Below the pieces are notes generated by a model. The model worked only from the letters and a program-made list of their open reading frames with translations. It did not search any database and was not told the DNA's origin. 53,753 nucleotides of DNA from Halobacterium sp. KA-4 (lineage in GTDB: Archaea; Halobacteriota; Halobacteria; Halobacteriales; Halobacteriaceae): positions 1-53,753 of the forward strand of contig NZ_JAJJZG010000019.1 in assembly GCF_021028995.1 (NCBI RefSeq), given 5' to 3'. The position numbers and the translations under genes were made by a program. Shown here piece by piece: positions 16,247-48,032 of the stretch. Positions within the stretch are counted from its first letter, which is position 1; every line of letters begins with the position of its first letter.

Positions 16247-18193
16247 ATGGCATCACAGCAGCCTGTCGAACGTGACGTCCGCGTTCACGCTCGCAACATC
16301 GGTGGTATCGACGAGGCCGAAGTCTCGCTCCCCCCGGGTGTGACCGTGCTCACCGGCCGAAACGCGACCAACAGAACGTCGTTCCTCCAGGCGATTATGG
16401 CGGGTCTGGGTAGCGAGCGCGCCTCCCTGAAAGGCGACGCCGACGAGGGTGAAGTCGAACTGCAGGTTGGCGACGAAACCTACACCCGAACACTCACGCG
16501 AAGCGGCGACACCGTCGTCTACGGCGGCGACCCCTACCTCGACGACCCGCTCGTCGCCGACCAGTTCGCGTTCCTCCTCGAAAACACCGAAGTCCGCCGC
16601 GCCGTCGCGCGCGGCGACGATCTCCGTGAGATCATCATGGACCCGGTTGACACCGAGGAAATCGAGTCCCAGATCCGCGAACTCGAAAACGAGAAACGCG
16701 ACCTCGACAACCAGATCAAGGAGCTCGAGCGAATCGAGCACGAGCTCCCGGAACTCGAAGCCGAAAAACAAACCCTCGAAGCGGATCTCGAAGAAGCGCG
16801 CGAAGAGCTCGCCGACGTCGAGGCCGAAATCGAGGAAAAAGACGTCAGTCTCGAACAGAGCCGCTCCCAGAAGGAAGCCATCGAGGAGGCCTTCGAGGCA
16901 CTGCGGGACGCCCAATCCGACCTCGAAGATGTCGAGTTCGAACTCGAAACCGAACAGCAGACCCTCGAAGACCTCCGTGACGAGCGCGACCAGCTTGAAG
17001 CCGAACTTGACGACGTCGACGAGCACAATGAGAACCCCGACCGACTCGCCGGTCGCATCGACGAACTCCGTGAGCGCAAGCGAGCGCTCGACGACACGAT
17101 CAGCCAGCTCGGCAGCGTCATCAGCTTCAACGAGGAGATGCTCGATGGAGAAGGCCTAGACCTCGACGAGTTCGGTGACGATACCGATGCCGACCCGACC
17201 CAACAACTCCTCGGTGAGGCCGAGGACGTCGTCTGCTGGACGTGTGGCTCCGAGGTCGAGCGCGACAGCATCGAGGGGACTGTCGACCACCTCCGGGACC
17301 TCCGTGCGGAGAAACTCGACGAGCGTAGCGACCTCGACGCGCAAATCGACGAGCTCTCGTCGACTCGCTCGGAGATTCAGCGACAGCAGCGCGAACGCGA
17401 GCGCACGGAGCGACGCCTCTCGGAGGTCGAGAACGAAATCGAGGCCACCGAGAAGCGTATCGACTCTCTGGAGGATTCCCTTGAAGAGCAGCGCGAGGAA
17501 GTCCAGCGCCTCGAAGCCGAGACCGAGGACGCCGGCACGGGCGGCGACTACGACGAAGTGCTGGAACTCCACCGCAAGTCCAACGAAGTCGAACTCCGCG
17601 TCGACCGCTTGGAGAGCGACCTCGCGGACGTCGAATCCAGTATCGCCGACCACGAGGAGACGCTGGGCGAGCGCGACGAACTGGCCGAGCGCCGCGACGA
17701 AATCGACGACGAACTCACCGACCTCCGGACGAAAGTCGACCGCATCGAGGCCGAAGCCGTCGAGGAGTTCAATGACCACATGGAGTCCGTGCTCGCAGTG
17801 CTGGAGTACGACAACATCGAGCGCATCTGGGTCGAGCGCCGCGAACGCGAGGTCCGCGAGGGCCGCCGCAAGGTCGAGAAGACCACCTTCGACCTCCACA
17901 TCATCCGCGCGACCGACGACGGTACATCCTACCGGGACACCATCGACCACCTCTCCGAGAGTGAGCGCGAAGTGACTGGACTCGTGTTCGCGCTGGCAGG
18001 CTACCTCGTCCACGAAGTCTACGAAGACGTCCCGTTCATGGTGCTGGACTCCCTGGAAGCCATCGACTCCGACCGCATCGCACGCGTCGTGGAGTACTTC
18101 AGCGACTACGCTGACTACCTCACCGTCGCACTGCTCCCGGAGGACGCCCAGGCGCTCGACGACGACTACGCCTACGTCGAGCAGATCGACTAA
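16247..18193 (+). CDS. Archaea-specific SMC-related protein (Rad50/SMC-like ATPase with zinc hook)
   Basis: 648 residues with SMC architecture: N-terminal ATPase half (1-120), a long coiled coil (about 125-325), a central CWTCG motif (C330, C333) like the Rad50 zinc hook, a returning coiled coil (about 345-540), and a C-terminal ATPase half. The Walker A region reads GRNATNRTS (37-45) instead of GxxGxGKS, lacking the usual Lys; related haloarchaeal proteins share this change, to my knowledge. The Walker B-like segment is DVPFMVLDSLEAID near 604-617, with Ser where Glu usually follows Asp. ATP hydrolysis is therefore doubtful, while dimerisation through the hook is likely. Arrangement directly behind rdfA suggests a joint role in chromosome or plasmid structure or cell shape. 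Confidence 0.85.
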   Translation: MASQQPVERDVRVHARNIGGIDEAEVSLPPGVTVLTGRNATNRTSFLQAIMAGLGSERASLKGDADEGEVELQVGDETYTRTLTRSGDTVVYGGDPYLDDPLVADQFAFLLENTEVRRAVARGDDLREIIMDPVDTEEIESQIRELENEKRDLDNQIKELERIEHELPELEAEKQTLEADLEEAREELADVEAEIEEKDVSLEQSRSQKEAIEEAFEALRDAQSDLEDVEFELETEQQTLEDLRDERDQLEAELDDVDEHNENPDRLAGRIDELRERKRALDDTISQLGSVISFNEEMLDGEGLDLDEFGDDTDADPTQQLLGEAEDVVCWTCGSEVERDSIEGTVDHLRDLRAEKLDERSDLDAQIDELSSTRSEIQRQQRERERTERRLSEVENEIEATEKRIDSLEDSLEEQREEVQRLEAETEDAGTGGDYDEVLELHRKSNEVELRVDRLESDLADVESSIADHEETLGERDELAERRDEIDDELTDLRTKVDRIEAEAVEEFNDHMESVLAVLEYDNIERIWVERREREVREGRRKVEKTTFDLHIIRATDDGTSYRDTIDHLSESEREVTGLVFALAGYLVHEVYEDVPFMVLDSLEAIDSDRIARVVEYFSDYADYLTVALLPEDAQALDDDYAYVEQID

Positions 18194-28816: not shown

Positions 28817-28830
28817 GATAGGTACCTATC
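28817..28830. repeat. GATAGGTACCTATC palindrome shared with the parA upstream region
   Basis: A perfect 14-bp palindrome. Its 12-bp core GATAGGTACCTA recurs twice upstream of parA (39559-39570 and 39694-39705). A degenerate second half-copy, AATAGGTGTCTATC, follows at about 28835-28848. It lies 177 bp before the peroxiredoxin ATG. Confidence 0.75.
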
Positions 28831-28961
28831 CTGGAATAGGTGTCTATCTCGATGTATCGGGGGTGAGTCGGTGATTCGATCAATGATCGTCGTCCAACTC
28901 GTGTAGGCTGTCGACCCGCATGGTGTGAGTGATTCAGCGAACTCGACCGTGTTCGAACCTA

Positions 28962-28969
28962 ACTTAATG
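28962..28969 (+). promoter_or_regulatory. TATA-like box of the peroxiredoxin gene
   Basis: ACTTAATG ends 24 bp before the ATG at 28994, arguing for a leaderless transcript and for that start. Confidence 0.4.
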
Positions 28970-28993
28970 TGCCAGTACAACGTATTGACTGAC

Positions 28994-29467
28994 ATGGTAT
29001 CTACAGGTGACTCCGCACCGCGGTTCGAGGCGACAGTTGGAACGAGCGACCACGAGGACTTCGCGCTTGAAGACCAGCTCGGTGACGGGCCGGTCGTGCT
29101 GGCGTTCTTCCCGGGCGCGTTCACGCCGCCGTGCACGAACGAGATGATCGCACTACAGGACCGCCTTGACGACTTCGAGGACGCGGGCGCGTCCGTCTTC
29201 GGCGTGAGCGCGGACTCGCCGTTCTCGCAGGGCGCGTTCCGTGAGGAGCACGGCATCGAGTTCGACCTCGTCAGCGACATGGCCGGCGACGCGATTCGCG
29301 CGTACGACCTCGAGATGGACATCGAGGACCTCGGGCTGTACGGCATCGCCAACCGCGCGGTGTTCGTCCTCGACGACGACGGCGAGGTAACGTACGCGTG
29401 GGTCGCCGACGACCCCACCAACGAACCCGACTACGACGCCGTGCTGGACGCCGTTCGGTCGGCCTGA
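28994..29467 (+). CDS. Peroxiredoxin with a single cysteine (AhpE/1-Cys type)
   Basis: The 157-residue thioredoxin-fold enzyme reduces hydrogen peroxide or organic hydroperoxides. The peroxidatic Cys is C47 in FFPGAFTPPCTNEM, with the conserved Thr-x-x-Cys arrangement. The rest of the protein has no other Cys, so a resolving thiol must come from another molecule, as in AhpE-like enzymes. The partner Arg would be in GIANRAVFVLD. The ATG at 28994 is preferred over 28925 because it gives the family N-terminus (MVSTGDSAPRFEATV) and lies correctly behind a TATA-like box. It stands alone and converges on the large lipoprotein gene. Confidence 0.88.
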   Translation: MVSTGDSAPRFEATVGTSDHEDFALEDQLGDGPVVLAFFPGAFTPPCTNEMIALQDRLDDFEDAGASVFGVSADSPFSQGAFREEHGIEFDLVSDMAGDAIRAYDLEMDIEDLGLYGIANRAVFVLDDDGEVTYAWVADDPTNEPDYDAVLDAVRSA

Positions 29468-29563
29468 CCGGCGCAGACACGCCGCGCTTTTTCGGTGCGC
29501 ACGCACCCTGAAGGAGAACGAGGAGCGGCGGAACTACGACCGCGGGGCGGGCTACGAGCCCGC

Positions 29564-31960
29564 CTACGATGGCGCGGTCTCATTGGTCACCTCGACCGTA
29601 ATCGTCCGCTCGTCCGGTATCGCGTACGGCGTGCCGTCCTCGTCTACGACCCAGTCGAGGCCGAACGTGACCGTCTGGGTCGCGTCGCCCTTGACGTCGA
29701 CCGTGCGCTCGTCGGTACGCACGGCGAGTTCGCCGACGGTGACCGTCCCGTCGCTGGTGTTCCCGTCGAACGCGGCGGCGCTGGCGGTCGACCGCCGGTC
29801 GGACCACATCCCGTGGCCCTCGCCGCGACTGGCGTCGATGCCGACGTCGGCTCCAAGACTGATGGCGGGCTCGCCGCTGCGCCGCGCGCTCATCGACATC
29901 GCGCCGACGCCGTCGTCCAGCCCGGACACCGTGACGTTCGTCGCGGACTCGTTGCCGACCGACACGTTCAGCGAGTCGGTTTCGAGCGTGACGTTCAGCG
30001 GCTCGCCGGTCGACTTCCCGACGACGAGCCGCGTGGTCGCGGTCGCGCCGCCGTCGCGGGTGTCGACGCCCGTGACGCGAACGCGGTAGAGGCCGGCGTC
30101 CAGCGCGTCGGCCGACAGCGAGAACTCCTTGTTCCAGCGGGTGTAGCGGTCGTCCATCTCGACATCGTGGGACGGCCCGAGGTCGACGCGCGCGACCGGC
30201 CGGCCGTCCACGCGCTCGACGCCCGCGAACCCGGGCGTGTTCGCGAACGCGTCGCGGAGCGCGTCGGCGCCCGCTCGGTCGCCGCGGAAGCGGTCCGCGC
30301 CGACGTACACCGAGAAGTTCGCGCGCTCCGAGAACAGCGAGACGGTAGTGTCCGCGTCCCCGGTCGTCGCGTCGACGTACGTCGAGTTCGTCTCGGCGTC
30401 GAGGTCGTGACTGGTTACCTCGAAGGCAGCGGTCTCGTTTTCGGTCGTGCGCGTCAGCGTGCCGTTCTCGACCGCGAGCGCGTCACCGCCCGGGGGTTCG
30501 AGGACGTACTCGCCGAGCGGGAGCGTCGCGGACTCGACGACCGCCTCGCCGTCCGCGTCGAGGGCGACGCGGCGCTCGACGTGCCGCTGGAAGTCGTCGT
30601 GTTCGCCGGGCACCGCGACGAGGTCGAGCGCGTCGGCGCTCGCGTTCGGGTACGCAAAGCCGAGCGCCTGTCCGCGGTAGACCGACTCGTTGGACGTCGG
30701 CGCGGCCTCCGCGTCGAGCGTCGTCGGGGCGGTGGCGTCGGGGAACTCCACCGACCAGACGCTCGTCGAGACGTTCCGCGCGCGGAAGTTCATCGTCGCC
30801 GCGATCGCCCCGTCGCCGTCGCCGACTGCGGCGACGACGCGGGCCGTGTCCGCGTGAGTCGTCTGGAACTGCTCGGTACCGTTCGCCGCGACGCCGACGA
30901 ACCGCGTCGTGGTGTTGTCGCTCCACTCCGTGCGGTCCGACCCGACGAGGACAACGCCGTCCTCGGTGTCGAGGACGTCCCTGACGCGCGTCTCGCCCGC
31001 CGTCGGGTAGACGCGGTTCCACTCGGGGACGCCGTCCGGGCCGACGCGCGCGACCCACGGCGTGGACTGGCCGCCGATGAACCCCGGGCGCATCGAGCCG
31101 GCGACGATGAGGTCGCCGTCCCCGGTTGGCTTCACGCCGACGACGCGGCCGCCGGTGGCGTCGCTGTACGTCTCGTTCAGCACGAGCGCGCCGGTCTCGT
31201 TCGCGCGCGCCACCCACGGCGTGTCGAACGAGCCACTGCCCGCGAGGACGAAGCCGTCGCCGGTCGTCTGCAGCGCGGTCGGCGCGGCGTCGACGCCGTA
31301 GGTGCGTTCGAGCGTCGCGTTGCCCGCGTCGTCGTAGCGCGCGAGCCGCACGTTGCTGTCCGCGTGCGTGTACGCGACGGCCACGCCGTCGTCGGCCTGC
31401 GCGAGCGCGAGGCCGCGCGAGACGTAGCCGGTGGTGTTCAGCGAGTCCGCCCACTGTCGCTCGCCGTCGGGACCGAGCCGGGCGATCGAGACGCTGACGT
31501 TCCACTGCGAGGCGTTCTCGGACTGCCGTCGCTCGGTCCGAACGACGTACGCGCCGCCGTCGCCACTGGACGCGACGGCCGCGATGCTCGTCCGGTTCGC
31601 GGACGCGTACTCGCGGGTCCAGTTCGTCGTGCCGTTCGCGCCGATGCGGAGCACGGTCGCGTTGGACGCGGGCAGGCCGCTCGCCCCGCCGACGAGCGTG
31701 CCGCCGTCGCCAGCGTCGGCGAGCGCGGTGACGGAGAAGGCGTCGGCGGTGGCGTTCTCGACGACGTCGCCCACGCCGGGCGCGTCGTCCGTGCTGTTCG
31801 ACTCGGTCGGCGTGCTCGTCGTGCCGTCGACGGTGCCACTGGGCTGGCCAGTGGTCGCCGTCGGGGTCTGCTCGCCGCCGGTGAACGGACCGCCGGCACA
31901 GCCGGCGGTCAGGAGGACGACGGCGACGAGCACGCACGCGAGGACCAATCGTCGGTGCAT
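29564..31960 (-). CDS. Large surface lipoprotein with beta-propeller-like repeats
   Basis: From the ATG at 31960 it has 798 residues and opens MHRRLVLACVLVAVVLLTAG followed by Cys, a lipoprotein signal with lipobox LTAGC. A Thr/Ser/Pro-rich linker (about 25-60) is followed by repeated blades such as SIAAVASSGDGGAYVVRTER, GLALAQADDGVAVAYTHAD, ALQTTGDGFVLAGSGSFDTP and VLDTEDGVVLVGSDRTEW. These resemble WD40/PQQ-like propellers. A C-terminal part of about 300 residues reads as beta-sandwich surface domains. Many Asn-x-Ser/Thr sites suggest glycosylation. The start at 32116 would place the signal internally and is rejected. Function is unknown; a binding or sensing role at the cell surface is inferred. 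Confidence 0.8.
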   Translation of the reverse strand: MHRRLVLACVLVAVVLLTAGCAGGPFTGGEQTPTATTGQPSGTVDGTTSTPTESNSTDDAPGVGDVVENATADAFSVTALADAGDGGTLVGGASGLPASNATVLRIGANGTTNWTREYASANRTSIAAVASSGDGGAYVVRTERRQSENASQWNVSVSIARLGPDGERQWADSLNTTGYVSRGLALAQADDGVAVAYTHADSNVRLARYDDAGNATLERTYGVDAAPTALQTTGDGFVLAGSGSFDTPWVARANETGALVLNETYSDATGGRVVGVKPTGDGDLIVAGSMRPGFIGGQSTPWVARVGPDGVPEWNRVYPTAGETRVRDVLDTEDGVVLVGSDRTEWSDNTTTRFVGVAANGTEQFQTTHADTARVVAAVGDGDGAIAATMNFRARNVSTSVWSVEFPDATAPTTLDAEAAPTSNESVYRGQALGFAYPNASADALDLVAVPGEHDDFQRHVERRVALDADGEAVVESATLPLGEYVLEPPGGDALAVENGTLTRTTENETAAFEVTSHDLDAETNSTYVDATTGDADTTVSLFSERANFSVYVGADRFRGDRAGADALRDAFANTPGFAGVERVDGRPVARVDLGPSHDVEMDDRYTRWNKEFSLSADALDAGLYRVRVTGVDTRDGGATATTRLVVGKSTGEPLNVTLETDSLNVSVGNESATNVTVSGLDDGVGAMSMSARRSGEPAISLGADVGIDASRGEGHGMWSDRRSTASAAAFDGNTSDGTVTVGELAVRTDERTVDVKGDATQTVTFGLDWVVDEDGTPYAIPDERTITVEVTNETAPS

Positions 31961-32006
31961 GCGTCGGGAACGTCGTCGCCAACCCCGTAATAGGTTTCGT
32001 TCGAAC

Positions 32007-32972
32007 TCAGGGGGTGACGACGAGCTTCCCGAGGTAGCTCTCCGCGAGCACGTCGCGGTGAGCGGCGGCGGCCTCGTCGAGGTTGTACGTCTCTGCGAGC
32101 TCGATGGAGAGTTCATCGGTCGCCATCAAGTGCGCAACGCCGCGCAGCGGCACGCGCAGGTCTGGCGTGTTGAACATACTCATAAACTGGTAGGTGACGT
32201 CCTTCGAGCGCGCAGCACCGTCGTCGGTAAAGCCCGGGTCAGGGCTGTTCTCGCCGATGCCGATCACGCGAGCGTCGTGCGCGGCGACGTTCGCGTCGAA
32301 CTGGAGGTAATCGTCGAGACGGTGGTCGAGCACGACGTCCACACCGCCGTTGGAGGCCGACACGACGGCGCCCTCAAGGTCGTGACGTGTGTAGTCAAGG
32401 ACGGTGTCAGCACCGAGCGCGCTGACGTCGTCGTGGTACTCTGGTCGCGCAGTCGTGAGCACGCGCGCGCTCACCGCGTCAGCAATCTGGACCGCAGCGT
32501 GCCCGACGCCACCGGAGCCGCCGTGGACCAGTGCGTACTCCGCGGGGTCGAGAGCAGCGTGATCGACGAGCGCGCGCCACGCCGTGACAGCCGCGACACC
32601 TGCCGCGCCAGCTTCGACGGCGTCCGCGCCGTCTGGCAGCGCGACAGTGCGGTCAGTTGGAACGGTCGCGTACTCTGCGTACGCGCCCTGATGCGCTCCG
32701 TTCCCGATGCCCGTGCCGTAGACACGGTCACCGACCTCGAACGCGTCGACGCCCTCACCGACCTCGGCGACGGTGCCAGCGTAGTCAACGCCGGGCGTGA
32801 ACGGAAGCCCAACCGGCTCGTACGACCCCTCACGGAAGTACGTGTCTACGGGGTTGACGCCCGCAGCCGCTACCTCAATGAGGAGTTCTCCCGCGTCGGG
32901 AGATGGCCGATCAACGTCTTCGACGTGCATGACATCCGGGTCGCCGTGTTCCTGTAAGCGGACTGCTCGCAT
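32007..32972 (-). CDS. NADPH:quinone oxidoreductase-like MDR protein
   Basis: A 321-residue zinc-free medium-chain dehydrogenase. It opens MRAVRLQEHGDPDVMHVEDV and has AAAGVNPVDTYFREGSYEP and LPFTPGVDYAGTVAEVGEGV, typical of the quinone reductase (QOR) group. The NADPH-binding motif is VHGGSGGVGHAAVQIA. GAARSKDVTYQFMSMFNTP and EAAAAHRDVLAESYLGKLVV match the C-terminal catalytic-domain half. Zinc ligands are absent. Members transfer electrons from NADPH to quinones or reduce enones. It follows the lipoprotein gene by 46 bp but in the order QOR first, lipoprotein second, so co-transcription is possible. Confidence 0.88.
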   Translation of the reverse strand: MRAVRLQEHGDPDVMHVEDVDRPSPDAGELLIEVAAAGVNPVDTYFREGSYEPVGLPFTPGVDYAGTVAEVGEGVDAFEVGDRVYGTGIGNGAHQGAYAEYATVPTDRTVALPDGADAVEAGAAGVAAVTAWRALVDHAALDPAEYALVHGGSGGVGHAAVQIADAVSARVLTTARPEYHDDVSALGADTVLDYTRHDLEGAVVSASNGGVDVVLDHRLDDYLQFDANVAAHDARVIGIGENSPDPGFTDDGAARSKDVTYQFMSMFNTPDLRVPLRGVAHLMATDELSIELAETYNLDEAAAAHRDVLAESYLGKLVVTP

Positions 32973-33042
32973 ACTGCGTGGCCACGATACACGGGGGGAT
33001 AAGACTACGGCCTCCGGCGGAACGGACGGCCGAGTGGAGCCT

Positions 33043-33456
33043 CTAGAAGAGTCCGACGCCGATGCTGAGCGTCCAGCCGCCGCTGGCGACCGCTGCGACG
33101 ACGAGCGACCCGCCGGCGAGGGAGACGTTCTTCAAGAAACTGTTCACTTCGTCCTGTCGCTGGTCCTCGGGGACCGCCCAGAAGTCGTGCATGACGACTG
33201 CCGAGACGACGAGGAACGCTGCGAGCCCGATTGCGGCGACGACCGGGAAGATACCGACGATGACGCCCAAGCCGCCGAGGACGAGGAGTGCACCGGAGGT
33301 GAGGACGGAGAGCTTCGGTGCGGGGAGGCCCTTGTACTCGGCGTAGCTAGCCATCTGTTCGGTTTGCGTGAAGTGACTGAAGCCGGTGAATGCGAGGACG
33401 CCACCGAAGAGGATGCGACCGACGATGAGGAGGACTGCGTCGAGTGCGAGCGCCAT
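33043..33456 (-). CDS. DoxX-family four-helix membrane protein
   Basis: 137 residues with four membrane segments: VLLIVGRILFGGVLAFTGFS, LSVLTSGALLVLGGLGVIVG, VAAIGLAAFLVVSAVVMHDF and SLAGGSLVVAAVASGGWTLS. The loop SHFTQTEQMASYAEYKGLPA and the HDFW motif are typical of DoxX/SURF4-like proteins. Such proteins are linked with oxidative stress complexes and thiosulfate:quinone oxidoreductase, but most have no proven role. It is transcribed toward and 70 bp before the quinone-reductase gene, so the two may share an operon and act on quinones. Confidence 0.85.
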   Translation of the reverse strand: MALALDAVLLIVGRILFGGVLAFTGFSHFTQTEQMASYAEYKGLPAPKLSVLTSGALLVLGGLGVIVGIFPVVAAIGLAAFLVVSAVVMHDFWAVPEDQRQDEVNSFLKNVSLAGGSLVVAAVASGGWTLSIGVGLF

Positions 33457-33718
33457 CAGGCACTCACCCGTGTCGGCGTTCGGCGTACACTACTAGCGGA
33501 AGCGTGCGGAGGGTTCGTCATCATACTATACCGGGGTCGTGAGAGGTATACGTTCGTTGACCAGATGGTAAACGACGGGTTGAACCGTACTGAGAAAAGC
33601 CGGTTCTGGGAGCCGTTCCCACCACGAGTATGCTCGTACCGGTTTTAGCTTCGGATACTTCCGGATGTGAATCGCGGCGACGACTACTGTTAAGTTCTGG
33701 ACGCCGCGTACGAAGCGT

Positions 33719-34780
33719 ATGCGCGCAGCAGTCCTACAGGAGTACGGTGAACCGTTGGTTGTCGAGGAGGTGCCGGACCCCGATTTGGACCCCCACGGGG
33801 TCGTCGTCTCGGTCGAAGCGTGTGGTATCTGTCGGAGCGATTGGCACGCATGGAAGGGGCACGGTGAGTGGGCCGACGACCAGGTTGACTTCGGACAGAT
33901 TCTCGGCCACGAACCTGCGGGCACAGTCGTCGAAGTCGGCGACGACGTGGACAGCGTCGCCGTCGGCGATTGTGTTGCTGTTCCCTTCAATCTCGGCGAG
34001 GGAGCGTGTCCGCAGTGCCGGCGCGGCCACGGGAACGTCTGCGAGGACGGCTATGCCCTCGGGTTCGAACACGACGCGCAGGGCGCGTTCGCCGAGCGCG
34101 TTCACGTCCCACACGCCGACTTTAATGCGACCGTCGTCCCCGAGGACGTACCGATGGAGGCAGTGGCGGCGCTGGGCTGTCGGTACGCCACGGCGTTTCA
34201 CGCGCTCGCCCACCGTGCGGACGTTGCGGGCGGCGACTGGGTCGCCATCCACGGCTGCGGCGGCCTCGGGCTCGCTGGGGTTCAGATTGCGACGGCCCTC
34301 GGGGCCGGCGTGGTCGCCGTCGACGTGCGCGAGGAACCACTCGCACTCGCCGAACAGGTCGGCGCTGTAGAAACCGTACGCTCGGATCTTGTCGAGTCGG
34401 TGCCCGAGCGCATCGCGGCGTTGACCGACGGCGGCGCGCACGTCTCGATGGACGCACTTGGACGCGCGGAGACCTGCCGAAACAGCGTCGACTGCCTCCG
34501 CACGCGCGGCACGCACGTCCAAGTCGGCCTGACGTCGGAAGCCGAGAAGGGCGAAGTTTCGCTCCCCGTCGACGAAATCACGCGCTGGGACATCTCCGTC
34601 CTCGGGTCACGCGGGATGCCGCCATCCAGGTACGACGAGCTCCTGCGGATGATTGCCTCGGACCGGCTTCGCCCGAGTGAACTCGTCACCGAGCGTGTCC
34701 CCCTCGAAAACGTCTCCAACCGATTGGCAGCGATGACCGACTACGAGACTAGCGGCATCGAACTCGTCACGGAGTTCTAA
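33719..34780 (+). CDS. Zinc-dependent alcohol dehydrogenase
   Basis: A 353-residue MDR enzyme oxidising an alcohol with NAD(P). Catalytic zinc ligands are visible: C38 (ACGICRSDWH), H64-E65 (ILGHEPAGTV) and C154 (ALGCRYATAFHAL). The nucleotide-binding motif is GCGGLGLAGVQIA (179-191). The structural zinc loop has C97, C100 and C108 (GACPQCRRGHGNVC), but the first of the usual four Cys is Glu94, a replacement seen in some thermophilic archaeal alcohol dehydrogenases. The ATG at 33719 opens MRAAVLQEYGEPLVVEEVPD. It has its own upstream region of 260 bp and converges on a small membrane protein gene. The substrate is not evident. Confidence 0.9.
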   Translation: MRAAVLQEYGEPLVVEEVPDPDLDPHGVVVSVEACGICRSDWHAWKGHGEWADDQVDFGQILGHEPAGTVVEVGDDVDSVAVGDCVAVPFNLGEGACPQCRRGHGNVCEDGYALGFEHDAQGAFAERVHVPHADFNATVVPEDVPMEAVAALGCRYATAFHALAHRADVAGGDWVAIHGCGGLGLAGVQIATALGAGVVAVDVREEPLALAEQVGAVETVRSDLVESVPERIAALTDGGAHVSMDALGRAETCRNSVDCLRTRGTHVQVGLTSEAEKGEVSLPVDEITRWDISVLGSRGMPPSRYDELLRMIASDRLRPSELVTERVPLENVSNRLAAMTDYETSGIELVTEF

Positions 34781-34815
34781 CGAGCGTGTCCACTCGGTTT
34801 CTTCGCTCAGAGCCG

Positions 34816-35016
34816 TCACGCCGGCGCGAGTAGCCTGTACAGGCCGACGAAAAAACTCGTCACTAGGAGGCCGCCCCCGGTGACGACGAGCAGTCGCGAC
34901 AGGTCGAGTATGGCGACGAAGAGAGATTCGGGGACCAACACGCCGAGCGCGACGATGAACAACCCAACCCAGAACACCTCGTTTCGCTGGTAGAGTCCCA
35001 CAAGCGTCTCTCTCAT
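34816..35016 (-). CDS. Small two-helix membrane protein
   Basis: 66 residues from the ATG at 35016: MRETLVGLYQRNEVFWVGLF, then two hydrophobic segments (VGLFIVALGVLVPESLFVAI and LLVVTGGGLLVTSFFVGLYR). Longer upstream readings include basic, non-membrane sequence overlapping the divergent aldo/keto reductase promoter and are rejected. No homologue with a function is recognised. It converges on the alcohol dehydrogenase gene, 35 bp away. Confidence 0.6.
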   Translation of the reverse strand: MRETLVGLYQRNEVFWVGLFIVALGVLVPESLFVAILDLSRLLVVTGGGLLVTSFFVGLYRLLAPA

Positions 35017-35140
35017 ATGGTTACTGACCGGAGATGGGGCATAAGCGTTCGTTCTGTGAGACACTCGTGCCAGCCCGAACCGAGTGGGCTTGCCGCTTGC
35101 CGCACGCTTTTTCGGGCGGTGGACGTATCGTACAACGAAT

Positions 35141-36148
35141 ATGAGCGACTCCGACGACGGGCTCGGGTTCGTCCAGTTCGGCGACACCGGCCTCCAGACC
35201 AGCGAGTTGCAGTTCGGGACGTGGCGATTCGGCAAAGAAACCGAGGAGGGGAACGTCGAAATCGGCGAGAAGCGCGCGAAGAAACTGCTGGACGCGTACG
35301 CCGACGCGGGCGGGCGCTACATCGACACAGCCGACGTCTACGGTGGCGGGAAGAGCGAGGAGTGGATTGGCGACTGGCTCGCCGACCGCGACCGCGAGCG
35401 CTACACCATCGCCTCCAAGATTTACTGGCAGATTCGAGAGGGCGACCCGAACAGCCGCGGGAACAACCGAAAGAACATTCGTGACCGCGTGGACGCCATC
35501 CTCGACCGTCTCGGCACGGACTACATCGACGTCCTGTACATCCACCGCTGGGACGACCAAACGCCGACACGCGAGCTGATGCGGACACTGAACGGCCTCG
35601 TCGAGGCTGGGAAGGTCCACTACATTGGCGCGTCGACGCTGCGGCCGAACGCATGGAAGGTCGCGCAGGCGAACGAACTCGCGCGCAGCGAGGGCTGGGA
35701 GCCGTTCACGGTGCTCCAGCCGCGGTACAACCTCGTCGACCGCGAAATCGAGGGGGACTACCTCGAGATGGCGCGCAGCGAGGGGCTGGCGGTCTGCCCG
35801 TGGAGCCCGCTCGGCCAGGGCTTCCTCACCGGAAAGTACGACCGCGAAGACGGACTCACCGGAGAATCCCGTGCGAGCGAGTCCTCGCGCTTTGAGGAGA
35901 ACTACCTCACCGAGGAGAACTTCGCAGTCCACGACGTGCTCGACGAGATCGGCGACGAGGTCGACGCGTCGCCCGCGCAGGTCGCGCTCGCGTGGCTGAC
36001 TCATCGCGACGGCGTTACCGCACCTATCGTCGGCGCACGCACCGTCGACCAACTGGAGGAGAATCTCGCGGCCGCGGCCATCGACCTCTCCGACGAGCAG
36101 GTCGACCGACTCACCGAAGCCAAGGGAGGTCCGTACGCCGGCCTCTGA
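35141..36148 (+). CDS. Aldo/keto reductase
   Basis: A 335-residue TIM-barrel oxidoreductase using NADPH. The catalytic tetrad is present: D62 and Y67 (RYIDTADVYGGGKSEEWIG), K93 (TIASKIYW) and H135 (DVLYIHRWD). Cofactor-binding segments are CPWSPLGQGFLTGKY and APIVGARTVDQLEENLAA. The ATG at 35141 gives MSDSDDGLGFVQFGDTGLQT; the reading from 35084 would pass through the promoter. It belongs to the bacterial YghZ/YajO-like group acting on small aldehydes. The promoter region is shared with the divergent small membrane protein. There is no operon partner. Confidence 0.9.
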   Translation: MSDSDDGLGFVQFGDTGLQTSELQFGTWRFGKETEEGNVEIGEKRAKKLLDAYADAGGRYIDTADVYGGGKSEEWIGDWLADRDRERYTIASKIYWQIREGDPNSRGNNRKNIRDRVDAILDRLGTDYIDVLYIHRWDDQTPTRELMRTLNGLVEAGKVHYIGASTLRPNAWKVAQANELARSEGWEPFTVLQPRYNLVDREIEGDYLEMARSEGLAVCPWSPLGQGFLTGKYDREDGLTGESRASESSRFEENYLTEENFAVHDVLDEIGDEVDASPAQVALAWLTHRDGVTAPIVGARTVDQLEENLAAAAIDLSDEQVDRLTEAKGGPYAGL

Positions 36149-36229
36149 ATTCGGCGACTCGCGGCTTCTGACGCGCTATTTTTCGAGACGGCAGCGCCTC
36201 ACTAGATATGTTTGGTTAATCGTTGTGTA

Positions 36230-36312
36230 GTAAACACTATTACGCCCGCATATGTATTCTTCTTCGTAGAATTAGACTCGGTTAAAGACAATTATGGAGT
36301 GTAATAGTTTAC
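36230..36312. promoter_or_regulatory. Inverted GTAAAC/TATTAC motif pair upstream of the RCK-domain gene
   Basis: GTAAACACTATTAC (36230-36243) and, inverted, GTAATAGTTTAC (36301-36312) lie in the 210-bp AT-rich leader of the next gene. They differ only by two extra bases in the centre. The pair may be operator half-sites or a fold-back; function is inferred from position. Confidence 0.35.
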
Positions 36313-36358
36313 GTCCGTCGAGTAAAATACTGGGCGGCATTAGCGAAGGGGTCGTGCT

Positions 36359-37117
36359 GTGAAGCACTCGTTGGACACGCCGCTCCGGGCTGTCGTCCGC
36401 CGGCAACTCCTCCGTCAGCTGCTGCGCCCCGTCGCAGCGTTCGCCACGGTCGTCGCAATCGGTGTGGCCGGGTTCAGCTCACTGGGCGGAATCGGTGTCG
36501 TCGACGCGCTGTTCTGGCTGCTCGACCCCACCAGCATCGAACTCCACTTCGAGGCCCACGACGGCCCCGAGACGCTCGTGAAAGCATACGCCGTGGTCGT
36601 ACTCTCCGGGCTCGTCGTCGCCGGGCTCTGGATCGGCGAGACCGTGCTGTCGGCGGCGTTCGGCGGCCAAATCCAAACGGAACTGAAACACATGCAAATC
36701 GAACAAGCAGTCGCGGACCTCCGCGGCCACGTCATCATCTGCGGGTACGGCACGTTCGGGAAAACCATCGCGCGGGCGCTCCAGGAGACCGACCGGGACG
36801 TCGTCGTCATCGAGTCACAGGACGCCGAGTTCCAGCGCGCACTCGACGACGACCTCCTCGCGATTCAGGGCGACGCCCGCCGCGAGGAGACGTTGACAGA
36901 CGCAGGCGTCGAGCGGGCCGGCGTCGTCGTCGGTGCTATCGACGACTCGAACGCGAACATTCAGATTGCGATGAACGCCAGCCAAATCGCGCCGACTGTT
37001 CGACTCGTCGTGCGCGTCGGCGACGAAACCTACGAGCAACTCGCGCGCCGCGCGGGCGCTGATCGCGTCATCATCCCAGAGGTCGCTAGCGCCGAACAGG
37101 TCACGTCGACGCTCTAG
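36359..37117 (+). CDS. Membrane protein with RCK/TrkA-N domain, no potassium selectivity filter
   Basis: 252 residues, GTG start at 36359. Two membrane segments (VAAFATVVAIGVAGFSSLGG and AYAVVVLSGLVVAGLWIGET) flank a loop reading ALFWLLDPTSIELHFEAHDG. A TrkA-N Rossmann domain follows, with GYGTFGKTIARAL (129-141) and the acidic strand end VVVIESQD that binds NAD ribose. Potassium channels of this topology have TVGYG or a close variant in the loop; none is present here. The WLLDPTS loop recalls CASTOR/POLLUX-type channels. It may therefore be a ligand-gated channel of different selectivity or a non-conducting sensor. The stop overlaps the convergent NmrA-like gene by 4 bp. Confidence 0.75.
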   Translation: MKHSLDTPLRAVVRRQLLRQLLRPVAAFATVVAIGVAGFSSLGGIGVVDALFWLLDPTSIELHFEAHDGPETLVKAYAVVVLSGLVVAGLWIGETVLSAAFGGQIQTELKHMQIEQAVADLRGHVIICGYGTFGKTIARALQETDRDVVVIESQDAEFQRALDDDLLAIQGDARREETLTDAGVERAGVVVGAIDDSNANIQIAMNASQIAPTVRLVVRVGDETYEQLARRAGADRVIIPEVASAEQVTSTL

Positions 37118-37752
37118 TAGCCGGTGCCGAGGTAGGTGTGGACGTGGTCCCCGGATTCGAGTTCGTCGACGAACGCCACCGCGAAGTCCTCCATCGAGAT
37201 GTAGCTCTCGCCGTCCTCGTCGGCGACGAGTTCGCCTTCCGCTGTCCGGTACTCGCCCGTTCGTTCGCCAGGTTCGATGAGTGCCGCGGGGGCGACGTAC
37301 GTCCAGTTGAGGTCGTCAGCAGCCTCGAATACCTGGTAGGCTTCGATGGCCGCACGCGCCACCGGCTCCCATTCCTCGGGGAACTCTTCCGTCTCGATGA
37401 GGCGGGTGTCAGGAGCGACGTGGAGACCGCCCGCGCCGCCCGTCCACACGAGCCGGTCGACGCCCGCGTCTCGCATTCCCTCGACGACGGCTTCCGCCAT
37501 CTCGACGAGCACCCCTGGGTCTTCGTCCTCGCTAGGACCGAGTGCGGACGCGACTGCATCATGGCCCTCCGCGAGGTCCGCAATATCGATATGGTTGGTC
37601 GCGTCGCCGGCGACCGCCTCGAAGTCGGGATCGTCGATACCGTCGACGTGACCGCTCCGCGAGACGCCAGTGACGTTGTGCCCGCGATCGAGGAGTTCAT
37701 TCGCGATTCGCTGGCCGATTCGACCGCTCGCACCGAGGAGGAGTACGTCCAT
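37114..37752 (-). CDS. NAD(P)-binding Rossmann protein (NmrA/atypical SDR type)
   Basis: From the ATG at 37752 it has 212 residues: MDVLLLGASGRIGQRIANEL carries the GxxGxxG motif of atypical short-chain dehydrogenases. AVAGDATNHIDIADLAEGHD and LVWTGGAGGLHVAPDTRL are typical of the NmrA/YwnB-like group, which includes NADPH sensors and small reductases. The usual Tyr-x3-Lys catalytic pair is not evident. The start at 37803 adds non-family residues and is rejected. It ends head-to-head against the RCK-domain gene with a 4-bp overlap of stops. Confidence 0.85.
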   Translation of the reverse strand: MDVLLLGASGRIGQRIANELLDRGHNVTGVSRSGHVDGIDDPDFEAVAGDATNHIDIADLAEGHDAVASALGPSEDEDPGVLVEMAEAVVEGMRDAGVDRLVWTGGAGGLHVAPDTRLIETEEFPEEWEPVARAAIEAYQVFEAADDLNWTYVAPAALIEPGERTGEYRTAEGELVADEDGESYISMEDFAVAFVDELESGDHVHTYLGTGY

Positions 37753-37854
37753 GTCAGTTCCAATATTGTACAGTGAGCGACATAGGGTTTTGTGAAGGGG
37801 CACTCCACGGGATTGCGAAGCAACGAATAGTGACTGCGAAATTGGACGACGCGG

Positions 37855-38202
37855 CTACTGTACGGCTTTGACGGCAGCTTCCATTGCCGCCTCCTCATCC
37901 CCGAGGTCGTCGTAGGCGGTCTCATAGCGGTTTGCGAATTCCAGTGCACGCTCGAACGCTGGCTCCCGTTCGTCGAACGTCTCGATTGGTTCTTCGCGAT
38001 CGAACTCGTCGCGATTCCCACGAATCGCACCGGCCCGATACTGGTCCTCGTCGTGAGGCGAGGACGTCGACACCGGGAGCACGTGCACGCCGACGTCCTG
38101 GTCCTCTCGCACGAACAGCGTCGGATTCGTCGCTCGATACTTCTCGGTGATGTAGTCGGGATTCTCTACCTCGTGCCACTCCGCCGGCAAGGACGGCGCC
38201 AT
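37855..38202 (-). CDS. Small acidic protein, third gene of the parA cassette
   Basis: This 115-residue protein starts 42 bp after the preceding gene and is the last of three minus-strand genes behind parA. It opens MAPSLPAEWHEVENPDYITE, followed by TNPTLFVREDQDVGVHVLPV, a beta-rich core, and ends in a helical tail (FERALEFANRYETAYDDLGD). No DNA-binding motif is obvious. I do not recognise a named family. Its position suggests a role with ParA, but it could be an independent passenger. Confidence 0.65.
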   Translation of the reverse strand: MAPSLPAEWHEVENPDYITEKYRATNPTLFVREDQDVGVHVLPVSTSSPHDEDQYRAGAIRGNRDEFDREEPIETFDEREPAFERALEFANRYETAYDDLGDEEAAMEAAVKAVQ

Positions 38203-38244
38203 ACGTTCGCAACCGACGGCTGTGGCTTGTGTTTTCTGGCAGAC

Positions 38245-38667
38245 TCAGTCCTCGCGGCGCGCTTCCTGCACTGCCTCGGCGATTTCGTCGGGATGGTCGG
38301 CAGCGACACGGAGCACAGCGTCGTGGAGTTCGCGCTTCTCCTCGTTGCGGACGCCAGCCTCACGCAGCGTGCGCACGACATCCAAGTCGAGGGTATCTTC
38401 GAGCGCGGTCCACGCCTCCGGCCGCGCGTACATCGGCGCCTGCTTAACGTCGCCGTACTCGAACGCCGGCGTCTCGCTAGTCGTGTCCTCGGACGTCTCG
38501 TCCGATTTTCCGTCCTGATCGGTCGAAGATTCGGACGCGGCACCGCTAACGTCCACTCCCTCGTCGGCCTCGTTCTCGGCTGCTGCTGGCTCGTCGTCGT
38601 GCTCATTCGCCGTGTCGTCCCGGTCCATGTGCTCCTGTTCGGCGGCTTCGAGGTCGTCGAATCCCAT
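38245..38667 (-). CDS. Acidic ParA-partner candidate, overlapping parA
   Basis: 140 residues. The ATG overlaps the TAA of parA by one base (TAATG), so translation is coupled. The first 70 residues are highly acidic and disordered-looking. The rest is a compact helical domain: FEYGDVKQAPMYARPEAWTA, LDLDVVRTLREAGVRNEEKR, ELHDAVLRVAADHPDEIAEA. In bacterial and archaeal partition systems the gene after parA encodes the centromere-binding partner. This domain is small enough to be a novel adaptor, but I see no ribbon-helix-helix or helix-turn-helix with confidence. Confidence 0.7.
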   Translation of the reverse strand: MGFDDLEAAEQEHMDRDDTANEHDDEPAAAENEADEGVDVSGAASESSTDQDGKSDETSEDTTSETPAFEYGDVKQAPMYARPEAWTALEDTLDLDVVRTLREAGVRNEEKRELHDAVLRVAADHPDEIAEAVQEARRED

Positions 38668-39542
38668 TAGCGAGTCACCTCCCCACGTTCGACGATGGCC
38701 GCAAGTTCATCGTACGCCCCGAGTTGGTCGCACCCGGGGTCGTAGTCGCGCAGCGGCACGCCCTCCTGGTGGGCGTCGTCGATGGCCGCACGATATCGAA
38801 TACCCGGGAGGTCACCGTCGTAGTCCCCATCGTCGATGGCCGCCCAGTCCTCTTCGGAGAGGTACGCGAAGTTCGGGACGAGGTGGTCGATGGCGTCCCG
38901 TGTCGTAATCTCGCGGAGGAGTTTGCGGTCTCGGGTCGACTGGTCGATGCGCTTGCGGAGGTCGGAGGGAACGACTGCGAGGATGTTCAACTCGAAGTAC
39001 TCGCGGGCTTCTTGGACGAGTCGGTCGAGCGTGTTCGTCAGGCCGGTTTCGTAGCCGTTCTCCGGGCGAAGTGGAATGATGAGGTTTCCGGTGGCGTACA
39101 TCGCGTTGTCGTTGAGTTTCCCGCGGTTGGCGGGACAGTCAATGACTATGTAGTCGTACTCCTCGCCGAGCAGTGGGTCAACGAGGTCTCGTTTCAGCCG
39201 CGTCGTCCCCATGGTCGCCTCCTTGAGCGCGGACTGCACGCTCTCTAGGTCCTCGTGCGCGGGGAAGAGGTCCAGTCCCTCCGCGACGTCGACGACGTAC
39301 TCGCGTGGGTCCTCCCCTTCGAGCAGTACAGCTTCGGCGTGGTTGCCGCCGTCGCCGTCGGTGCTGTTGTACTCGTCGTCGAACCCGAGGTTGAGCGTCA
39401 TGTGCCCGTTGTCGTCGAGGTCGACGACGAGCGCGCGCTCGTTGCGGTGTGCGAGCTCGCGCGCGAGGTTGAGCGCGGTGGTCGTTTTCGCGAAGCCTCC
39501 CTTCAGGATGCCGACGCTGACAGCGCGTGGTTCCGTTTGCAT
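38667..39542 (-). CDS. parA: ParA-family partition ATPase
   Basis: A 291-residue deviant Walker ATPase that segregates plasmids or chromosomes. The P-loop is KGGFAKTT (14-21) with the signature first Lys; VDLDDNGHMTLNL follows, and the Walker B strand is DYIVIDCPANRGK. The C-terminus is long and acidic, without an N-terminal helix-turn-helix, which places it with type Ib-like or haloarchaeal plasmid ParA proteins that do not bind operators themselves. It is the first gene of a leftward cassette of three. Its upstream region holds TAGGTACCTA repeats, which are good candidates for the centromere or operator of the system. Confidence 0.9.
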   Translation of the reverse strand: MQTEPRAVSVGILKGGFAKTTTALNLARELAHRNERALVVDLDDNGHMTLNLGFDDEYNSTDGDGGNHAEAVLLEGEDPREYVVDVAEGLDLFPAHEDLESVQSALKEATMGTTRLKRDLVDPLLGEEYDYIVIDCPANRGKLNDNAMYATGNLIIPLRPENGYETGLTNTLDRLVQEAREYFELNILAVVPSDLRKRIDQSTRDRKLLREITTRDAIDHLVPNFAYLSEEDWAAIDDGDYDGDLPGIRYRAAIDDAHQEGVPLRDYDPGCDQLGAYDELAAIVERGEVTR

Positions 39543-39558
39543 TGTTTACCTCGTCAGA

Positions 39559-39590
39559 GATAGGTACCTATTGTAACTGAGGTACCTACG
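39559..39590. repeat. TAGGTACCTA repeat pair just upstream of parA
   Basis: GATAGGTACCTATT (39559-39572) is followed after 6 bp by GAGGTACCTACG (39579-39590). The first contains the perfect palindrome TAGGTACCTA; the second keeps GGTACCTA. They lie 17-48 bp upstream of the parA ATG at 39542, where a repressor would block transcription. Confidence 0.75.
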
Positions 39591-39635
39591 CTGAGTCAGG
39601 CGAGGATTCCGCGTCGTCCGGCATAAAACAACGGG

Positions 39636-39712
39636 AATAGGTAGCCCAGGTAGCTGGACGAGGTGAGCTAGATACACCAACTAGCTCAGGTGGGATAGGT
39701 ACCTAAGGTATC
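39636..39712. repeat. Second block of GGTA(CC)-type repeats upstream of parA
   Basis: Includes AATAGGTAGC (39637-39646), CCAGGTAGCTGG (39647-39658), the TGAGCTAG/CTAGCTCA inverted repeat, and GATAGGTACCTAAGGTATCT (39694-39713). The last repeats the 12-mer GATAGGTACCTA exactly. The block is separated from the first pair by about 45 bp. Confidence 0.7.
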
Positions 39713-40518
39713 TCACCTCCCTTGCCTGCACGTGTGGGTGGTGAGAGTCGCCCACAGATTCCGCCAGCGCTCGGCGTGCGACTCGTCGACGAACGCCACA
39801 AGTCTGCGAGACGGTGACGAAGCCGCCCCGGTATCACTCGTAACCGCCCCCACACTACTTCGCTCACCCTGCGGAGTTCGCTCGTCGAGGCCTCGAAAGG
39901 CGACGCCTTTCGGTGGCTTCGACGTGGTTCTCACCGTCAATTGCCGGAAGCCGGTGGTGCACCACCCATTCCGTCGGCCGTCTAGGTCGTAGACTCCACC
40001 AGTCAGGGTCGGGCTACTGTGGCTTTGCTCGTGTTCGAGGAGGCGCTCCGCGCGGCCGTGTGCTGAATCAGCGCCGCCGCCCCACGGCGGCGTCGAACGG
40101 CGCGTCAGCGGAAGCGACGCAGTGGCGACAACCACAGGGCCACCTACAGAATTAATATCGCGAAATGTAGTTTATAGACCGGCTGAGTGGGCGAGTCGTC
40201 GCCGGAACAGGGAGTAACAGGACGAAGGCCAGAGTAACCGGGCGGCTGTGCTCCGTGGAGCACGGTGAATCGAGCCAGTCAACCAGACTACTGCCGGGGC
40301 GTCGACCACCGACGCGACGTCGACCTCGACCAATTCGTGCGTCGGAGGCGCATCCCCCGCAGCTGAAGAGTGGGGCGCTCTGGATACGGTCGGTTGCCGG
40401 ACTGGGAATCGGCCGTACCGATCAACTGGAGCGAACGAGCTAGCTACTCGTGCTAGTGGGTGTCAATGGGTCGAGGACTCGATCGCGCGTCGCTGCCACG
40501 CACAGCGCTCGCCACCGT

Positions 40519-40546
40519 CGGCTGCCCTACCGCGGTAGGGCAGCCG
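40519..40546. repeat. 28-bp perfect GC-rich palindrome
   Basis: CGGCTGCCCTAC (40519-40530), CGCG (40531-40534), GTAGGGCAGCCG (40535-40546): no mismatch and no spacer. Short outer arms ACAGCG (40502-40507) and CGCTGT (40548-40553) add to the symmetry. It lies about 200 bp from the stop of the D-lactate-dehydrogenase-like gene. As RNA it would form a strong hairpin, but without a T-run on either side. Confidence 0.8.
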
Positions 40547-40750
40547 TACGCTGTCCGCGTGACTCGCTCACCGACCAGCGGAGCCTTCGGTAGGCCGTTG
40601 TGGGTTCACGCACGCACGCGCGTTGTCGACTGCAAACCAAGTCTGTAAATCCTATTCTGCGATATAGAGTTATCGTCGCGAGGTGGCAGTCGAGCAGCCG
40701 GCGAGAAACCACGAGAGGGGGGTGACGACGAGCGTCCGGAGTGCGAGCGG

Positions 40751-47516: not shown

Positions 47517-48032
47517 CTGATATCTGGTAATTTGATTGTCCTATATCTATTTTTATATTTCTTTTGCCAGTCAGTGAATCGTGATTGTGAGTGGGGATTG
47601 TATATCGACAGCCCCCGCGGGCGTCATTCAACCCGTCCAGTATATCCTAATACTAGTTACAATAGGTAGTTTAGGTGCCTATTACTTTTTTAGAGGTCCG
47701 ATATCCGGTCATTTACTATTACAGCGGTTTCAGTAAATTCCAGATACGATCGAGAAACAGGTTTCGATGATGGTCCGAATATGAGGTATAGCTCCCCACC
47801 TCAACAACTAACCCCCATAATTACCAATTTTCGAAGTAATAAATACTATTGACTTTACGGAGTGGTATGCTGTCTCGTAGTGTCGTGACGAGCACGCTAC
47901 TTAATGCAGGCCGAAAAAGCGCGGCCGTGTTTCGAGTGGGGTGGAAATTCCTTGGTTCCTGGCGAGAACTTCTAAGCTTCCGAGAACCAGCCACCATTCT
48001 AATGGAGGTAGGTGGTATCTCTGACGGTAGGT
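47517..48032. other. AT-rich gene-free interval
   Basis: About 515 bp. T-rich runs at 47540-47565 follow the acyl-CoA dehydrogenase stop and could terminate transcription. AATAGG/CCTATT arms around TAGTTTAGGTG (about 47664-47686) resemble the TAGGTACCTA motif near parA but are imperfect. A short frame at 47849-48172 is not convincing as a gene. Confidence 0.5.

Follow-up and report, generated by a model that had tools for sequence, protein, structure and literature searches.

A 9-bp-spaced site set at a chromosomal parA operon in Halobacterium, a putative centromere and operator

A set of short repeated sites in a Halobacterium genome, consisting of two clusters upstream of a parA gene and two outlying sites (here called L and R), is probably a parS/SegB-like centromere and operator set that would be bound by the partner protein encoded overlapping parA. 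The first-pass annotation had offered either a parS-like set or a set of operators bound by a ParA partner; this is still the best reading, and at the promoter centromere and operator are probably both true. The window, by which we mean the whole stretch of 53,753 nt that was analysed, is contig C10 of a fragmented source assembly (G000; 55 contigs). It shows synteny with main chromosomes from elsewhere in the genus Halobacterium and represents Halobacterium chromosomal DNA; the nearest named relative among the loci compared is Halobacterium sp. CBA1126. No tRNA gene was found in the window. The comparison set comprised 13 Halobacterium genomes (single representatives, cited below by their G numbers), seven with this parA and six without it.

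The starting point was the 12-mer GATAGGTACCTA, for which three exact copies had been reported; an exact search of the window finds them at 28817-28828, 39559-39570 and 39694-39705. Their recurrence goes beyond chance, as the first-pass annotation had supposed: with two or fewer mismatches there are eight matches, against 0.89 on average and 5 at most in 100 dinucleotide shuffles. The 10-mer TAGGTACCTA, allowing one mismatch, is found at five places in the window (28819, 39561, 39579, 39696 and 47672) where 0.20 are expected, and none of the 100 shuffles gets to five. Throughout the 3.34-Mb, 55-contig assembly, the only copies of this 10-mer are those at 28819, 39561 and 39696, the three places of GATAGGTACCTA, and there is no spread across replicons. 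The degenerate variants listed earlier are likewise real, and are located as follows.

39579: variant GAGGTACCTA
39638: variant TAGGTAGCCC, followed 9 bp on by CAGGTAGCTG
28837: variant TAGGTGTCTA
47663: variant TAGGTAGTTTAGGTGCCTA

Raw abundance of the motif was tried as evidence and rejected, because genome-wide its count is not higher than that of a reversed-pattern control. Since the reversed pattern is equally common, the signal resides in the location and spacing of the sites and not in their number. The 12-mers stand out as the strongest within a series of AGGTA half-sites arranged on a 9-bp grid, the ideal unit being AGGTACCTN and the PWM consensus TTAGGTACCTAA. The palindromes to which attention had been drawn are present, but the unit is the 9-bp grid and not the lone palindrome. 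The genes and sites concerned are:

38245-38667, minus strand: partner gene, 140 aa, the start of which overlaps the parA stop by 1 base
38667-39542, minus strand: parA, a 291-aa deviant-Walker ATPase with the motif GILKGGFAKTTT
39547-39588, no strand: proximal cluster, half-site 39547-39552 and palindromes 39561-39570 and 39579-39588; PWM score 35.9
39623-39628, minus strand: putative TATA box of parA, TTTTAT, between both clusters
39638-39719, no strand: distal cluster, half-sites at 39638, 39647, 39660, 39687 and 39705 and palindrome 39696-39705; PWM score 33.9
28817-28848, no strand: site L, palindromes TAGGTACCTA and TAGGTGTCTA, 18 bp apart; PWM score 35.6
47662-47682, no strand: site R, TAGGTA and TAGGTGCCTA, 9 bp apart; PWM score 31.1

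The parA product is matched by Pfam AAA_31 (1.2e-28) and CbiA (1.1e-8), and its KGGFAKTT sequence agrees with the KGGxxK[T/S] pattern of ParA/MinD deviant-Walker ATPases. There is no N-terminal DNA-binding extension, the ATPase domain starting at residue 7, and the orthologues on Halobacterium chromosomes are 88-97% identical. Upstream of the gene, AGGT(A/G) half-sites occur in both orientations, mostly on the 9-bp grid. The two proximal palindromes, 18 bp apart, lie between the parA start codon and the putative promoter, at about -23 and -41 from the start codon; the distal cluster spans about -98 to about -180, largely in 9-bp steps. Presence upstream of orthologous parA genes had been named as a check on the motif, and it is found there in all seven Halobacterium orthologues as well as in several of those from other genera. 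The layout of the array is common to the seven Halobacterium orthologues, the upstream DNA having otherwise diverged. In an alignment of the seven upstream regions, the proximal positions -7.5, -25.5/-21.5 and -43.5/-39.5 are kept in most species, and a conserved GTTTTAT block between the clusters is probably the parA TATA box. Further upstream, positions 39720-40740 of the window form an insertion hotspot, the gap between the array and a FAD-oxidase gene being about 1 kb here, 2.9 kb in G002, 22 kb in G009 and G008, 29 kb in G011 and 43 kb in G012.

A cluster at parA accompanied by a single distant copy had been described. The clustering and the distant site hold, but the outlying places are two and not one, because positions 47663-47681 score like the other sites (31.1 vs. 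35.6, 35.9 and 33.9 for L and the proximal and distal parA clusters, respectively). Site L is intergenic, between a histidine kinase gene and a redoxin gene, and resembles the proximal cluster in its 18-bp spacing; site R, also intergenic, between acyl-CoA dehydrogenase and DoxX-like genes, resembles the distal array in its 9-bp spacing. Genome alignment reveals that the position of L is kept in four genomes (this one, G002, G011 and G012): ahead of the redoxin gene in G002 (1292979) and G011 (1613427), and immediately behind the kinase gene in G012 (1052956). It was not found in G008 and G009.

The neighbourhood of R is kept in six of six comparable genomes (this one, G002, G008, G009, G011 and G012). 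The distance from parA to R is +8 kb here, +29 kb in G002, +57 kb in G009 and +89 kb in G011, and in G012 and G008 the site is on other contigs than parA. Weak scores are seen for R in G008 (16.0), G009 (19.6) and G012 (16.5), all of them below the reversed-control maximum of 20.2. The flanks of R are 53-73% identical between genomes, compared with 60 +/- 7% for random 60-mers, so that the site has been kept while its surroundings have not. Other 9-bp-spaced places were also noted: a three-unit site at G007:C1:1116752-1116779 (PWM score 26.2), 43 kb from parA and not matched to L or R, and pairs with two pattern mismatches at G012:C1:1526395 and G008:C130:63467, which are possibly further outlying sites. 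As to the genes beside L and R, the DoxX-like and redoxin genes lie side by side in two genomes that lack this parA, at G001:C1:608125-609206 and G010:C1:1947966-1949050.

All 17 places of TAGGTRCCTA in the seven parA-bearing genomes are at parA, L or R, while the six genomes without this parA contain two such places in total. An 18-bp-spaced pair pattern has no control matches in the 13 genomes, and its zero-mismatch matches are found only at parA and L. With a PWM trained on the parA arrays of six genomes, G002 being left out, we scanned 2,095,000 contiguous bases of G002 (83% of the chromosome); the top four places are L (35.6), the distal parA cluster (30.2), R (26.0) and the proximal parA cluster (23.1), and the fifth-ranked place scores 17.9 against a reversed-sequence control maximum of 20.2. 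At the sequence level the motif is tied to this parA, and the positions of L and R are conserved.

The main rival is a transcriptional operator set and nothing more, in which the partner or another regulator represses parA and regulates the redoxin and DoxX-like genes, no centromere being involved. In its favour, the proximal palindromes separate the parA start codon from its promoter, L and R occupy intergenic positions upstream of the redoxin and DoxX-like genes in the window, and these two genes adjoin each other in G001 and G010. However, the distance from L to the redoxin gene varies (132, 56 and 72 bp, and about 1.8 kb in G012), and R is about 1.2 kb upstream of DoxX in G008 and persists in G011 with no match to the DoxX half of the query beside it. 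Furthermore, in genomes without this parA the DoxX loci carry no site and the redoxin loci none above background; no place with a PWM score of at least 8 was found in the corresponding DoxX loci of six other genomes. We regard an exclusively regulatory role as unlikely, if still worth serious consideration.

The preferred reading, a centromere and operator set, assigns the sites to the partner. This protein has a conserved N-terminal (M)xFDDL motif (MGFDDL here), an acidic linker of variable length and a 74-aa C-terminal domain, and its overlap with parA is -1 in Halobacterium and -1 to -8 in most relatives. Searches of Pfam, NCBIfam and PHROGs gave no family match, and no ParB domain was matched in Pfam or NCBIfam. 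A solved-structure profile search with the partner returned one unrelated chain only (E 0.067), and structure searches with the full protein and with the C-terminal domain gave no usable match. The model of the C-terminal domain (pLDDT 90.5) comprises an extended segment and three helices; a predicted extended strand ahead of the helices is compatible with a ribbon-helix-helix fold, which we do not claim because the structure searches gave no usable match. No homologue was found in the phage collection. Relatives are present on 72 plasmid records, haloarchaeal among the matches listed, where they are annotated as hypothetical proteins and, in the records examined, adjoin "ParA family protein" genes.

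Other par loci of haloarchaea show the 9-bp grid too, built from different hexamers. In the DNA that precedes 33 non-redundant parA relatives, exact 5-mer repeats number 276, 230, 156 and 144 at lags of 9, 18, 27 and 36, respectively, against 22 +/- 9 at other lags; the parA coding and downstream DNA has no 9-bp pattern, showing coding-type multiples of three instead. A held-out test on 12 plasmid par loci, picked via the partner protein and not via repeats, gave 79, 101, 51 and 22 repeats at the same lags vs. 8.0 +/- 5.6. The hexamers differ by group (TAGGTA, TAGCTA, CTACTC, CTATTC, TGTACA, TTCGTA and others) and are generally separated by 3-bp spacers. At least four par loci with differing hexamers are present in the source genome itself:

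Contig C10: TAGGTA
Contig C13: CTACTC
Contig C12: CTATTC
Contig C26: TGTACA/TGTAGA

In a sister clade ParA is 72% identical, the partner only 25-30%, and the hexamer is CTACTC and not TAGGTA. A change in both partner and hexamer is expected if the partner reads the hexamer, for which this is suggestive only. A reading in which residues of the partner strand track the hexamer was judged by eye only and has been set aside. The source assembly contains at least six ParA relatives (contigs C10, C13, C12, C6, C26 and C5), and contig C6 carries a partner-like gene with no clear 9-bp array. We found no prior description of these arrays in the open-access literature.

On these grounds we propose that the partner most likely binds AGGTA half-sites 9 bp apart via its C-terminal domain. 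Bound to the two promoter-flanking clusters, it would act as a repressor of its own operon and assemble a partition complex, which its binding to L and R would extend to flanking DNA. The resulting three-part centromere (L, parA and R) would be moved or positioned by ParA, which the MGFDDL N-terminus of the partner may contact. From this arrangement we infer that the partner binds the sites, regulates its own operon and stimulates ParA, and that the system takes part in chromosome segregation; the simplest account would be one protein with one target set, autoregulating at the promoter and forming a centromere at the array, L and R.

Alternatively, the arrays might be replication iterons, that is, plasmid origin repeats, and the parA region an integrated plasmid remnant. 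The ParA relatives are mostly on plasmids or small contigs, and short tandem repeats like these are typical of iteron origins. Against this, the arrays lie upstream of parA wherever examined, a scan of window proteins found no Orc1/Cdc6 or Rep initiator, complete chromosomes have their nearest Orc1 genes 100-195 kb off, and L and R, being single pairs, do not resemble an origin; we consider an iteron origin very improbable. Accidental recurrence of a rare 12-mer, with L and R shared by descent only, is scarcely credible: the genome-wide raw count is indeed no higher than that of the reversed pattern, but chance appears already contradicted by the 17/17 places at parA, L or R, the 9/18-bp phasing and the top four ranks in the 2.1-Mb scan, and mere descent by the retention of R between flanks of random-level identity.

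By analogy, the centromere and operator set with its two genes would work like SegAB or a type Ib module. As in SegAB of Saccharolobus/Sulfolobus (PMC12284271, PMC5120986), a ParA-type ATPase gene is followed by an overlapping small archaeal partner gene, and palindromic sites occur just upstream of the operon with others on the chromosome, concentrated near the operon. The SegB motif is the 13-bp TCTAGASTCTAGA (TCTAGA-S-TCTAGA) (PMC12284271), and SegB gives 39 ChIP peaks, 83.7% of its sites being intragenic (PMC12284271, PMC5120986). The Halobacterium unit, in contrast, is made up of AGGTA half-sites on a 9-bp grid in place of a 13-bp TCTAGA-S-TCTAGA, with a dense promoter array and just two outlying sites, each of them intergenic. 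The solved-structure profile search revealed no sequence link of the partner to solved SegB. Given the different site and the unproven homology of the partner, we do not assign the system to SegAB.

Type Ib plasmid partition modules consist of a small ParA, a small centromere-binding protein and a repeat centromere upstream. The likeness to these lies in the short ParA (291 aa, no N-terminal extension), the small partner gene downstream and the short tandem repeats, which flank the TATA-like block and appear to overlap the parA promoter as a putative centromere. Unlike such modules, the Halobacterium locus is on the main chromosome and has extra sites kilobases away, and its partner, known here from sequence and model, belongs to no known family. 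With the bacterial chromosomal ParABS system it shares a ParA plus partner and a number of target sites no more than tens of kilobases away from them, but the partner has no ParB domain, the sites differ, and the locus is not origin-proximal, as bacterial parS is. The best Orc1 gene of the chromosome is 1.2-1.3 Mb away from parA, and a second conserved Orc1 gene is at a distance of 102 kb (G002), 136 kb (G009) and 195 kb (G011), from which we conclude that parA does not sit close to an origin in the way of bacterial parS. About half of the genus lacks the system, which is therefore not essential there for chromosome inheritance. A 648-aa protein with an AAA_23 (SMC/Rad50-like) ATPase domain is encoded at positions 16247-18193 of the window, about 20 kb from parA, and is also found near parA in G002 and G009.

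Whether a broader interpretation holds seems to us evenly balanced: several Halobacterium species would have adopted a plasmid-type partition system on their main chromosome, with a three-part centromere (the promoter array and two flanking intergenic sites) kept through rearrangement. Systems of its class would occur throughout the haloarchaea; their partners, from a family so far without classification, would recognise hexamers at a constant 9-bp spacing, and replicons sharing a cell would use different hexamers so as to avoid competition. The nature and placement of archaeal centromeres are among the outstanding questions of a review (PMC5120986). Haloarchaea are polyploid and their mode of chromosome segregation is unclear; the locus suggests what a haloarchaeal centromere could look like and, since it brings together defined target sites, a candidate binding protein and an ATPase on one chromosome, makes the segregation question directly testable. 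If true, the fixed 9-bp spacing combined with hexamers that vary among the replicons in a cell would amount to a specificity code that could be read to judge haloarchaeal plasmid compatibility and to design vectors.
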